Source: Parcubacteria group bacterium
GTDB lineage: Bacteria; Patescibacteriota; Minisyncoccia; Phycocordibacterales; Zambryskibacteraceae
Assembly (NCBI GenBank): GCA_028286465.1
Contig: JAQBRN010000029.1
Location: 1-43,345 of the forward strand
Direction: 5' to 3'
Length of the DNA: 43,345 bases
Of this stretch, positions 37,879-41,583 are shown in pieces (within the stretch, counting starts at the first letter, position 1; each line of letters opens with the position of its first letter). Both the position numbers and the translations under genes were made by a program. The notes beneath the pieces are model-generated. The model was not told the origin of the DNA. It did not search any database and saw only the letters and a list, made by a program, of their open reading frames with translations.

Positions 37879-37900
37879 GAAACTCAAAGTTTTATAAAAA

Positions 37901-37926
37901 AGTCCCGCAGCAATGCGGGACTTTTG
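37901..37926 (+). terminator. Bidirectional terminator after rplK
   Basis: AGTCCCGC (37901-37908) pairs with GCGGGACT (37915-37922). T-runs follow on both strands, so it also ends the opposing gene at 37928. Confidence 0.92.
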
Positions 37927-37927
37927 C

Positions 37928-38413
37928 TTAGGGAAGCGTGGCAAGCTGCACTTCGTATTTCTGTGCAGTTTCGCCGACGATTTTCACTAATGACTCGATG
38001 CTCCACATCGGAGGTTTATGGAGACCGCTCTGGTTCGTCAGGCCGATGAAGGTGGAGTCGTAGACGACCCGACAGGGAATACCAAGTTTGAGTGTTTCCA
38101 TACGGACCCGTTCCGCATCTTCGCTTCCGTCATGATACAGGCAGAGCAAAGGATTCCACTTGCCCCAAGAGTTGCTCTTTTCGTCGTGGCGCTTTAACCC
38201 AAGCTCTTCCGCGAGTATGCGTGCACTCTCCGGCGAGACGTTCCGAGCCTCGAAAAGTGCTTCTCCGCCATTCCCGTGATTGGCATGAAGACGCAGCACC
38301 TCGGTCTCGGCATCGTAGTGCATGAAGTAGTGTGACTTCTTCAAGAAGTTCTTGATGACTGCCGGGTAGAACACTACGCTTCCGAGGATTACCTTCGAGT
38401 TCTCAGTGCCCAT
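37928..38413 (-). CDS. Hypothetical protein (161 aa)
   Basis: I do not recognise a family. The protein is soluble and alpha/beta, with SHYFMHYDAETEVLRLHANHGN, a short helix (SPESARILAEELG), PLLCLYHDGSEDAERVRMETLKLG and GIPCRVVYDSTFIGL. I chose the ATG at 38413 because GGAG lies 7 bases upstream on the minus strand. It has its own promoter and shares the terminator with rplK. It diverges from the BtpA-like gene, with 125 bases between starts. Confidence 0.65.
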   Translation of the reverse strand: MGTENSKVILGSVVFYPAVIKNFLKKSHYFMHYDAETEVLRLHANHGNGGEALFEARNVSPESARILAEELGLKRHDEKSNSWGKWNPLLCLYHDGSEDAERVRMETLKLGIPCRVVYDSTFIGLTNQSGLHKPPMWSIESLVKIVGETAQKYEVQLATLP

Positions 38414-38451
38414 ATTTCGTCTCCAAAGGGAAAGGGTGCTATCTTCTTTGC

Positions 38452-38479
38452 ATACTATACTTCTCGAAGATATTTTCAA
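38452..38479 (-). promoter_or_regulatory. Promoter of the 37928-38413 gene
   Basis: On the minus strand TTGAAA (38474-38479), a 16-base spacer, then TAGTAT (38452-38457). Confidence 0.5.
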
Positions 38480-38482
38480 CTT

Positions 38483-38510
38483 TTGCTTTATTCCTAGAGA
38501 TACGTAGAGT
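38483..38510 (+). promoter_or_regulatory. Promoter of the BtpA-like gene
   Basis: TTGCTT (38483-38488), a 16-base spacer, then TAGAGT (38505-38510). It sits back to back with the opposing promoter. Confidence 0.45.
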
Positions 38511-38538
38511 AGGAAGAGGCTCTTTTAGGAGGTGGCGC

Positions 38539-39243
38539 ATGTCGCGATTTCGTACAGCTTTTCCAGCGGGAAAAGTGTTTCTACCGGTAGTGCATGTCGA
38601 GAGCAAGGAACAAGCGCTTCGTAATGCCAGTATCGCATTGGATAACGGAGCGGATGGGATCTTTCTTATCGGGCACAGCATGTCTGTCTCCGGTTTGAGG
38701 AGTGTCTATGAGCATGTGCGCGGCACTCTTCCCGAAGCCTGGATCGGACTCAACCAGCTCGGTTTGTCCGTTGAGGAATCCTTTCTTTTTCTGCCGGATG
38801 ACGTTTCCGGCATTTGGGTCGATAACGGCCTTGTCGATCCCGATGTGCCGAACTCGATCGCTGCCGCTCGCATGTTCTGGAAGGTCCTCACAAGTGTCAG
38901 GGAAACTCCGTTCCAAACCCCGCTCTACTTCGGAGGGATCGCTTTCAAGGGGCAGAAGACAGTGAGCGATCCCGGCCTTGCAGCCAAGCTTGCCGCGCCG
39001 CTCATGGATATTGTCACGACAAGCGGACCGGGTACGGGACAGGCGGCAGATCCGGAAAAGATCGCGCTCATGCGCAAAGGCATCGAAGAAGGCATCCTCG
39101 GTCTCGCGAGCGGCCTCACGGCTGAGAATGTGTGGATGTATAAAGAAAACGTCGACGTCTTCTTGGTCGCCACGGGCATCAGTGACTCCTTCACCGAGCT
39201 TAACCCGAAGAAGACACGCGACTTCGGCCGCAACTGCCGCTAG
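38539..39243 (+). CDS. TIM-barrel protein resembling the BtpA/SgcQ family
   Basis: The 234-aa protein looks like a (beta/alpha)8 barrel: PVVHVESKEQALRNASIALDNGADGIFLIG, AWIGLNQLG, SGIWVDNG, TPLYFGGIAFKG, MDIVTTSGPGTGQAADPEKI and the phosphate-binding-type end GLASGLTAENVWMYKENVDVFLVATGIS. This order matches BtpA/SgcQ-type proteins, whose reactions are poorly known (BtpA affects photosystem I in cyanobacteria). GGAGG lies 6 bases before the ATG. The stop codon is inside the terminator stem. A cassette-type gene. Confidence 0.6.
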   Translation: MSRFRTAFPAGKVFLPVVHVESKEQALRNASIALDNGADGIFLIGHSMSVSGLRSVYEHVRGTLPEAWIGLNQLGLSVEESFLFLPDDVSGIWVDNGLVDPDVPNSIAAARMFWKVLTSVRETPFQTPLYFGGIAFKGQKTVSDPGLAAKLAAPLMDIVTTSGPGTGQAADPEKIALMRKGIEEGILGLASGLTAENVWMYKENVDVFLVATGISDSFTELNPKKTRDFGRNCR

Positions 39244-39262
39244 GAAACTAGCGGCTTTTATA
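39236..39262 (+). terminator. Terminator overlapping the stop of the BtpA-like gene
   Basis: GCCGCTA (39236-39242) pairs with TAGCGGC (39249-39255), followed by TTTTA. The stem holds the stop codon. Confidence 0.88.
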
Positions 39263-40168
39263 TAGGCGTCTGCGGCCATGGCCTGCTTTCAGGTTCGTAT
39301 ATTTTCTGAATTCGCAGCCGATGCCCTCCCAATTTTCCGCAGAGAGTCGAAGCGGTTTTCTATCGACGGTAAGGACGGTATCAAATGGAATGCGTGCGAG
39401 CTTTTCTACGAGCAAAGTCGGATCAACAGTTCCATCGATTCGTCGCATGGTCGGCGCTGCACCGGGCCCGATAGGAAAGCGGGCGAAGAGGTCGAGGTGT
39501 TCGGGGAATTGATATGCCGTGTCGATGAGCATTTCCGTCCAAAGGAAATGAAGGTTGAATCCGAACAGAGGAAGGATTTTTTCAACGCCTTCATACACGG
39601 AGAGCTTCTGCCACGATTCGATCTCGCGCGATACTTCCTTCATGACGGCGGGCAGGTATTTCGTAATGAAAAGTTCCCGCGTCGGCGTCGCACTTCGCAT
39701 GATGGTGCTTACGGGGAAGACATACGCATTACCGAATCTCGGGCGGGGAAGGACACAGAGTTTTTTATAAACGAGTTCATTTTCCTTTTCATCGAATGAA
39801 AGCAAGCCGGTAGCATGAATCGTCTCTGGCCGCGCGACCATGCGGCAGTAGAACATGTTCAAGAGCCAGAGCGGGAAATCGTTTCGGATCGGATTGAGAA
39901 GAGTATGGAATTCAATGGTCTGCTTATCGAACTCGCGGAAGATGTTGCAGAAGCGGAATTCGGAAAGGATCGGGTCGTTCGTATAGGGTGCGGATTCTCC
40001 CCGGGTTTTCTTTCTCCAGATCTCGATGCGCTCTTTGATGAATTCGGACATGTCCGTATAGAGGCCGATATCCGAGAAAAGATCGTTCGGATCCGTTGAC
40101 TCGGAAGGCAAAGGAGTGTGTAACGGCCAGTGCCTGTAAAGGGCTTTGAGGTTCTGTGGAAGTTCCAT
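39248..40168 (-). CDS. Helical protein of the thymine-hypermodification / 5-hmdU kinase type
   Basis: The 306-aa all-helical protein has FRFCNIFREFDKQTIEFH (like the F-x-N-x-x-R-x-x-D motif) and, near the C-terminus, TEMLIDTAYQFPE followed by ARFPIGPGAAPTMRRI (GPGA motif). I recall this motif pair from the alpha-glutamyl/putrescinyl-thymine pyrophosphorylase and HMU-DNA-kinase helical families, first described in phages that hypermodify thymine, with bacterial members of unknown role. This needs a profile search. TATAAA, preceded by TGC, lies exactly 6 bases before the ATG. It is divergent from tmk and near dcd, both pyrimidine-nucleotide enzymes. Confidence 0.55.
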   Translation of the reverse strand: MELPQNLKALYRHWPLHTPLPSESTDPNDLFSDIGLYTDMSEFIKERIEIWRKKTRGESAPYTNDPILSEFRFCNIFREFDKQTIEFHTLLNPIRNDFPLWLLNMFYCRMVARPETIHATGLLSFDEKENELVYKKLCVLPRPRFGNAYVFPVSTIMRSATPTRELFITKYLPAVMKEVSREIESWQKLSVYEGVEKILPLFGFNLHFLWTEMLIDTAYQFPEHLDLFARFPIGPGAAPTMRRIDGTVDPTLLVEKLARIPFDTVLTVDRKPLRLSAENWEGIGCEFRKYTNLKAGHGRRRLYKSR

Positions 40169-40246
40169 GAATTTTTTATAGCATATCCTCGCTTTTTTCC
40201 TTGTCTGAATGTACCCTGTTTTGAGATATAAAGAGAGAGGTTCTTT

Positions 40247-40900
40247 GTGGAATATGGTCGGTTCATTGTACTCGAAGGCGGCGAAGGTGCCGGCAAGAGC
40301 AGCGCCATGAAGATGCTCGAAGCCTATCTGCCTAGAGAGAATACTGTCTTCACGCGTGAGCCGGGCGGAACTCCCTTGGCTCAGAAGATTCGGCAGATGC
40401 TCTTGCAGGAAGCTGTGGAAGGTGCACATACCAATGTGATTGAGGAACCGATCGAGATCAGCCCCCTAACTCACTTTGCCCTCTTCTGGGCCGCGCGCCG
40501 CGCTCACGTTGAAGAGATCATCGCCCCTGCTCTCAAAGCGGGGAGGAATGTGGTGTGTGATCGCTTCGATGCCTCGACATGGGCGTATCAGATCTGGGGA
40601 CAGGAACAGCCCGAGCTTATTCCGCTGTTTCGGATGATGCGCGAGCATTTCGTCATCAGAGACGCGCGTCCGTATCTCTATGTGTATCTCGATGTCGAGC
40701 CGGAGGTCGGCATTGCGCGCACCAAGAGGCGCGGCATCGAGAACGAGTTCGATAAGAAAACGATCGAGTTCTATAAACGAGTACAAAGAGGATATCGGGA
40801 ATTCCTCGGATCATACCCGTGCCGTTCGATCGATGCGAATCGGCCCGAGCCCGAGGTGAGCTTGGATGTTCTCGAAGTGGTGATGTCGGCTCTAGCCTAA
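40247..40900 (+). CDS. tmk: Thymidylate kinase
   Basis: Tmk phosphorylates dTMP to dTDP. Walker A GGEGAGKS (11-18), TREPGGTPLAQKIR, CDRFDASTWAYQ (DR-F motif with the thymidine-binding region) and the lid with KRRGIENEFD are present. At 217 aa it is normal length. The GTG start at 40247 has GAGAGG about 6 bases upstream; TATAAA at 40227-40232 could be the -10. The gene is SD-led, unlike most core genes here, and ends in a terminator. Adjacent dcd and the opposing thymine-modification-type gene suggest a dTMP-related neighbourhood. Confidence 0.95.
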   Translation: MEYGRFIVLEGGEGAGKSSAMKMLEAYLPRENTVFTREPGGTPLAQKIRQMLLQEAVEGAHTNVIEEPIEISPLTHFALFWAARRAHVEEIIAPALKAGRNVVCDRFDASTWAYQIWGQEQPELIPLFRMMREHFVIRDARPYLYVYLDVEPEVGIARTKRRGIENEFDKKTIEFYKRVQRGYREFLGSYPCRSIDANRPEPEVSLDVLEVVMSALA

Positions 40901-40922
40901 GATAATTACTTAGGCTTTTTTA
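40894..40922 (+). terminator. Terminator overlapping the end of tmk
   Basis: AGCCTAAG (40894-40901) pairs with CTTAGGCT (40909-40916), followed by TTTTT. The stem contains the tmk stop codon and abuts the dcd stop. Confidence 0.9.
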
Positions 40923-41583
40923 TATCTCTATCGTTGTAGACCTTCGGCAGCATGCTTTCCGGTTTCCAGGTCTTTTTCATTTCCTTGATATCCGTAGAAC
41001 TTTGATACTTTCCTGTTTTCGTATAGTCGCTCTCGATGATCGGTCCCGTTTCGAAGAAGATGATCTGGGCGATGCGCCTTCCGACGACGAGAGGAATCGA
41101 GTAGTGGGAGGAGTTGTTGGTAATTTCCATCGTCCAGCGGTTGGTGTAGCCGACGTCGCCCCAGCCGGCACACTTGCAGACCTCGATGAAGTTCCGCCCC
41201 ATCGAAGAGCGCGCCTTCATCATGGTCGTGATGTGATGCTTGCCTCCGATGAATTCGTTGGTATGCGCAAGGATCGTTTCTCCCGGTTCGAGAAGAATAA
41301 TTTTGTCATTCGGCTCGATGCCCACGTAGTCGAACTTGGTATCTTGGAAGACGTCCTTCGCCCTCTCGGCCTTCGTCGGGATCGTGCCCCAGACGTGGTC
41401 GGTGTGGTGCTTGTCGTAGATATTATAAATATTGTAGAGATGCTTCGGTCGCTGTTCCCTAAAATAGTATTCTCCGAGGGTGACATCGTAGCTTGAGGTT
41501 GCGAGATTCTCCCTCATGAAGGGTTCGATGACGATGTCGCCCTTTTTCATTTCCTCGAGAATCTTTCGGTCGGATAGTGCCAT
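40906..41583 (-). CDS. dcd: dCTP deaminase
   Basis: Dcd converts dCTP to dUTP (or dUMP in bifunctional forms). The dUTPase-like trimer fold is visible: PFMRENLATSSYDVTLG, EFIGGKHHITTMMKARSSMGRN (A-R-S-S motif) and GYTNRWTMEITNNSSHYSIPLVVGRRIAQIIFF with the catalytic Glu in TMEITN. The 225-aa length is slightly above usual. I chose the ATG at 41583 because TATAAT lies exactly 6 bases upstream. It diverges from argS, with 38 bases between starts. Confidence 0.94.
   Translation of the reverse strand: MALSDRKILEEMKKGDIVIEPFMRENLATSSYDVTLGEYYFREQRPKHLYNIYNIYDKHHTDHVWGTIPTKAERAKDVFQDTKFDYVGIEPNDKIILLEPGETILAHTNEFIGGKHHITTMMKARSSMGRNFIEVCKCAGWGDVGYTNRWTMEITNNSSHYSIPLVVGRRIAQIIFFETGPIIESDYTKTGKYQSSTDIKEMKKTWKPESMLPKVYNDRDIKKPK

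Follow-up and report, generated by a model that had tools for sequence, protein, structure and literature searches.

The locus considered here raises the question of what a helical protein encoded next to two genes of nucleotide metabolism does in a patescibacterium. The window, by which we mean the whole stretch of 43,345 nucleotides that was analyzed (contig JAQBRN010000029.1 of a Parcubacteria group bacterium), contains the following features around the gene in question:

37879..40246: variable slot from rplK to tmk, defined by synteny with relatives and holding a 183-aa ORF, a BtpA/SgcQ-like gene and the HMUDK_hel gene
37928-38479, minus strand: the 183-aa ORF of the variable slot, with no Pfam match
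38539..39243, plus strand: BtpA/SgcQ-like gene, convergent with the HMUDK_hel gene (Pfam, homologue search)
39248..40168, minus strand: HMUDK_hel (PF18723) gene, 306 aa, stand-alone and without a kinase domain (ORF, Pfam, homologue alignment)
40169..40246: divergent intergenic stretch of 78 bp common to the HMUDK_hel gene and tmk (coordinates)
40247..40900, plus strand: tmk, dTMP kinase, a housekeeping copy divergent from the HMUDK_hel gene (PF02223, TIGR00041)
40906..41583, minus strand: dcd, dCTP deaminase family, 225 aa (PF22769, TIGR02274)

The original prediction had placed a 306-aa protein beside tmk and dcd within 39248-41583, and both the coordinates and the profiles agree with it; the gene itself runs over 39248-40168 on the minus strand. 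The gene tmk, which sits between the HMUDK_hel gene and dcd, scores 125.8 bits against PF02223 and 136.1 against TIGR00041 (cut-off 83.25), and dcd reaches 114 bits against PF22769 and 92.6 against TIGR02274, just below the cut-off of 92.8; at 225 aa, dcd is longer than the 180-position TIGR02274 model. The reading frame of the HMUDK_hel gene stays open up to 40429, and since the starts of all 18 aligned homologues coincide with the ATG at 40168 (MELP...) or fall close to it, we take this codon as the start, which lies 79 bp from the divergent start codon of tmk. A homologue of the BtpA/SgcQ-like neighbor, at 36% identity, is carried by a plasmid of Pseudohalocynthiibacter, where it accompanies phosphoribosyltransferase and PRPP synthetase genes; no such gene is seen in the corresponding slot of the relative G012.

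The assignment of the predicted protein to the HMUDK_hel family is solid at the level of sequence. Its match to PF18723 (55.6 bits, E 7e-15, Pfam cut-off 25) lies far above chance, none of 14 control genomes matches the profile, and the family is present in a single copy in the window genome; the PHROGs match is phrog_2396, a family without assigned function. A P-loop kinase domain of the PF18748 type is not found in the 306-aa protein by Pfam. The two motifs pointed out originally are present, F-x-N-x-x-R-x-x-D as F73-C-N75-x-x-R78-E-x-D81 and GPGA at 234-237, and they are invariant in the family, although "C-terminal" is a loose description of a motif at this position among 306 residues. Across 38 cellular and viral homologues F73, N75, R78, D81, G234 and G236 are invariant and P235 of the GPG at 234-236 nearly so; in the wider motifs FCNxxRExD, GPG and CExxKY, invariance or near-invariance extends to the viral members among these 38 sequences.

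An AlphaFold2 model built from a 38-row alignment (mean pLDDT 94, pTM 0.92) is all-helical, as had been foreseen. Eleven viral models match it at E <= 0.001 (best 7e-9) with TM to the query of 0.50-0.71, among them PhiW-14 C9DG43 and the SP10 5-hmdU DNA kinase. Among the solved structures listed by the search, the best match is 8z2n, the PaMx11 5-PmdU glycinyltransferase (PUGT), aligned over 213 residues at 4.2 A with a Z of 8.7, a value that the structure-search tool itself notes as suggestive at most for a helical protein. It is followed by QNG1 (7ulc, DUF2419), a queuine-salvage enzyme of similar fold class (Z 7.1, identity 11%) whose ligand is a free nucleotide, queuosine 5'-monophosphate, and then by the HhH DNA glycosylases AlkA, EndoIII and OGG1 (Z 5-7; Z 4-7 with MutY included; identity 4-11%). 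A PDB sequence search with the family profile yields nothing credible. The modeled fold class is thus suggestive of a DNA-glycosylase-like protein, at Z values that are modest for a helical protein. The aspartate typical of HhH glycosylases could not be assigned, and its candidate, D224, is replaced by N in several homologues, which counts against a glycosylase-like action.

These comparisons separate two families that had originally been named together. Membership of the 5-hmdU-DNA-kinase helical family is borne out by the PF18723 score, by the viral structural models and by the alignment with PaMx11 gp50. Resemblance to the aGPT-PPlase/ADDT family (PaMx11 gp46, the PUGT of 8z2n) is confined to the overall fold and does not extend to the sequence, with an hhalign probability of 0.2 against gp46 and neither PF18724 nor any other ADDT Pfam entry among the matches. 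The anti-phage DNA glycosylases Brig1 and Brig3 resemble our protein in proposed action, namely in taking a modified base out of phage DNA, but a Brig-type identity is ruled out, as the window protein is all-helical whereas the fold of Brig3 is mixed alpha/beta and similar to that of human AAG (PMC13160076).

The phage members of the family provide its functional setting. Phage thymidine-hypermodification operons encode a TS-type dUMP hydroxymethylase together with a P-loop 5-hmdU kinase, and 108 ORFs around viral HMUDK_hel genes include 17 of the thymidylate-synthase family, nine YfbR-like, seven TAGT and six HMUDK kinase genes. In PaMx11, gp50 is an HMUDK_hel protein (141 bits) that aligns with most of the window protein, and gp46 (PUGT), encoded in the same cluster, is an ADDT protein. 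Directly preceding gp50 is the P-loop kinase-like gp49, which falls below the Pfam cut-off for HMUDK_HMUD1 and lies close to a phage kinase profile that itself includes gp49. The SP10 5-hmdU DNA kinase is, judged by its protein name, presumably a fusion of kinase and helical domain. This pairing suggests that the helical part may handle the flipped base. With PhiW-14 C9DG43, PaMx11 gp50 and the helical part of the SP10 kinase the window protein shares profile, fold and invariant motifs; it differs from the viral members in having neither a fused or adjacent P-loop HMUDK kinase nor a hypermodification operon, and in about 30 extra N-terminal residues. Identity of the cellular clade to aligned viral members is 20-36%, against 45-63% within the clade.

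Could the cell itself produce a substrate of the phage type? In the window genome (729,632 bases, assembly 96% complete) neither ThyA (PF00303) nor ThyX (PF02511) is found, with positive controls, and local tblastn with E. coli queries over all 729,632 bases at E 0.1 returns no DHFR, SHMT or thymidine phosphorylase. With a profile built for the purpose from seven phage kinases, no credible HMUDK kinase comes up genome-wide (best 12.7 bits). When the PaMx11 cluster and five plasmid cassettes are used as phmmer queries, the HMUDK_hel gene is the only match in the genome, and PUGT, FAD-oxidoreductase and acetyltransferase partners are absent by the same method; Tet_JBP gives no match here, nor in the control genomes. 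As no ThyA, ThyX, DHFR, SHMT or kinase was found, the cell has no evident source of 5-hmdU of its own. A thymidine kinase is encoded at C17:3148-3726 on the minus strand (L197, 147 bits), so that dTMP can come via thymidine salvage; eight same-genus genomes tested have none. Thymidine kinase occurs in eight of 21 HMUDK_hel carriers and in none of 19 non-carriers tested, a contrast confounded by descent, since four of the eight are Uhrbacteria. The cellular base-modification pathway originally envisaged is not supported in complete form by the gene content: no ThyA/ThyX protein, kinase partner or other phage-operon partner accompanies the gene in this genome.

The gene nevertheless belongs to a maintained cellular lineage. 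A scan of genome contigs recovers 17 patescibacterial homologues of almost full length at 46-63% identity, with labels that include Paceibacterota, Uhrbacteria, Kerfeldbacteria, Wolfebacteria and WS6; G434 and G389 supply two more and G012 another, which with the window genome makes 21 carriers (L016 and G268 appear to be one genome). The close clade is found in four of 380 sampled genomes of the phylum, the window's own included (about 1%), and the gene in two of 99 relatives. In a tree of 61 sequences the 21 patescibacterial members form one clade (support 100/99), in which the window protein pairs with that of G012 (100/85); closest to it outside the clade is a viral contig (L021-L023) at 35% identity. 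The clade is under strong purifying selection, as dN/dS is about 0.1 in Uhrbacteria (0.085-0.146 among five of them). Identity is flat over taxonomic distance, at 62% with a genome of the same family and 63% with distant ones, and together with the patchy spread this suggests, on sequence grounds, horizontal transfer of the gene within the phylum. The 118 neighbors of patescibacterial members include NUDIX (3), UDG (2) and dCMP deaminase (2) genes, and no fixed gene partner emerges among them.

The gene sits among core genes. Relatives share the arrangement PAP2-SIMPL-nusG-rplK-[X]-tmk-argS, in most cases together with dcd, where X is ThyX in G002, G006 and G013, ThyA in G010, DHFR in G033, and HMUDK_hel in G012 and the window genome (G000), both of which lack ThyA and ThyX. 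The linkage of tmk and TS is common within the order, and another carrier (L007) holds ThyA, HMUDK_hel, dCMP deaminase and a NUDIX gene in the slot. A prophage origin of the locus is ruled out by the core-gene neighbors and by a slot that is syntenic in relatives. A link of HMUDK_hel members to thymidylate metabolism is supported, and the idea of a dTMP-pathway connection holds insofar as it recurs in other loci; tmk and dcd here are housekeeping genes that are syntenic also in relatives without the HMUDK_hel gene. The exact three-gene cluster is conserved in G012 alone.

Cell-encoded members outside the phylum point in a further direction. Homologues on plasmids (about 24% identity) stand beside dcd in Rhizobium and beside tmk in Haloarcula, near TS in Sinorhizobium and Nostoc (in Nostoc by annotation alone, with no Pfam match for the TS) and near DHFR in Mycobacterium, and several are accompanied by HTH-IrrE, ACP or phosphopantetheinyl transferase, MazG-MazG_C, TIR or patatin genes. 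The arrangement resembles that of a conflict cassette. Such cassettes (L228, L230, L233-L238) occur in Rhizobium, Streptomyces, Nostoc, Gloeothece and haloarchaea, where they combine HTH, IrrE peptidase, ACP/phosphopantetheinyl transferase, TS/tmk/dcd, HMUDK_hel and MazG-MazG_C in varying ways. The domain, its cellular coding and the adjoining thymidylate genes are shared with the window; the cassette partners are not, as phmmer finds no IrrE, ACP, MazG_C or TIR cassette genes in the window genome. The aGPT-PPlase, MazG and MazG-C domains have been listed as predicted, unvalidated defense domains in a 2026 paper (PMC13092281). No PADLOC model of known anti-phage systems matches, and the locus, a ribosomal and nucleotide-metabolism region and no defense island, counts against defense. 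Cell-encoded members as such are already known: plasmid records carry them, some as "putative DNA base hypermodification protein".

We favor the reading that the protein is a cellular, kinase-less HMUDK_hel member acting on modified thymine in DNA, probably in defense or DNA sanitation, and give it a probability of about 0.4. The protein would bind DNA and flip out a modified thymine, a 5-substituted deoxyuridine, and the flipped base might then be acted on or marked, much as is done by the phage 5-PmdU transferase and by DNA glycosylases of the HhH type. Its substrate would most likely be external, either hypermodified phage DNA or scavenged nucleosides, or might arise from thymine damage. 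Defense or sanitation is preferred over modification of the own genome because the cell makes no such base. The PF18723 profile, the fold matches and the retained residues common to phage members speak for action at the DNA level, as do the other cell-borne members in conflict-type cassettes (IrrE, TIR, MazG, patatin); against it, the linkage to tmk, dcd and TS would fit a free-nucleotide substrate too.

This last point leads to the reading that ranks next, possible by analogy with QNG1 but doubtful, in which the protein would be a nucleotide-level hydrolase or salvage enzyme for free (modified) dTMP or dUMP. QNG1 as second-best structural match, tmk and dcd as neighbors in the window and G012, and the slot of L007 agree with it, as do a dCMP deaminase gene adjoining in L011 and a NUDIX gene in L018; the thymidine kinase contrast might further mean that carriers import thymidine analogues. 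Yet a Z of 7.1 is weak, the viral relatives sit in DNA-hypermodification operons, and the confounding by descent noted above applies here as well. We find it unlikely that the protein modifies the DNA of its own cell by attaching a group to thymine or by helping to do so. It shares its family with proteins of phage thymidine-hypermodification operons, and one other carrier genome (G472, carrier L004) has a TS-like gene, L154, that lies less close to ThyA than to the type found in phage hypermodification, but the window genome lacks a TS-family hydroxymethylase, an HMUDK kinase and the PUGT, FAD-oxidoreductase or acetyltransferase partners. Low-scoring TS-like genes also occur in the non-carriers G034, G046, G064, G075 and G019.

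The swap of genes within the slot invites another reading, in which the clade would be a previously unrecognized enzyme of thymidylate metabolism, non-homologous to thymidylate synthase, that can take its place in the rplK-tmk-argS slot and makes or rescues dTMP by a route unrelated to ThyA/ThyX. ThyA or ThyX is present in 82 of 99 relatives and both HMUDK_hel carriers are among the 17 without, which two random draws would give with a chance of 0.028, kinship ignored. Still, 14 of 21 carriers retain TS, so the protein is no general TS substitute and replacement as a rule is ruled out; in L007 ThyA lies directly beside HMUDK_hel. The thymidine kinase of G000, unique in its genus sample, explains the supply of dTMP, and with neither DHFR nor SHMT there is no evident folate one-carbon donor, which leaves this reading very improbable. 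Long frames of 430-640 aa are common among the patescibacterial ThyX matches (G003, G028, G038, G064, G069, G090 and others), and some of them contain two Thy1 stretches. We give least credit of all to a phage-derived relic or functionless passenger: the nearest outgroup is viral, but the protein is full length with its family invariants intact in one cellular clade, no phage genes are recognized in the window slot, GC is ordinary (51% vs 52.6%), and the dN/dS and conservation disfavor it. A role outside all of these readings seems somewhat less probable than the nucleotide-level one.

Altogether, a protein family that owes its name to phage DNA hypermodification extends into minimal genomes as a conserved cellular branch, which does without the eponymous kinase, and cell-borne members recur beside genes of thymidylate supply. 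Should the helical domain act on DNA that contains modified thymine, the branch may represent a new enzyme of defense or repair; should its substrates be nucleotides, it could be a new enzyme of the thymidylate pool.
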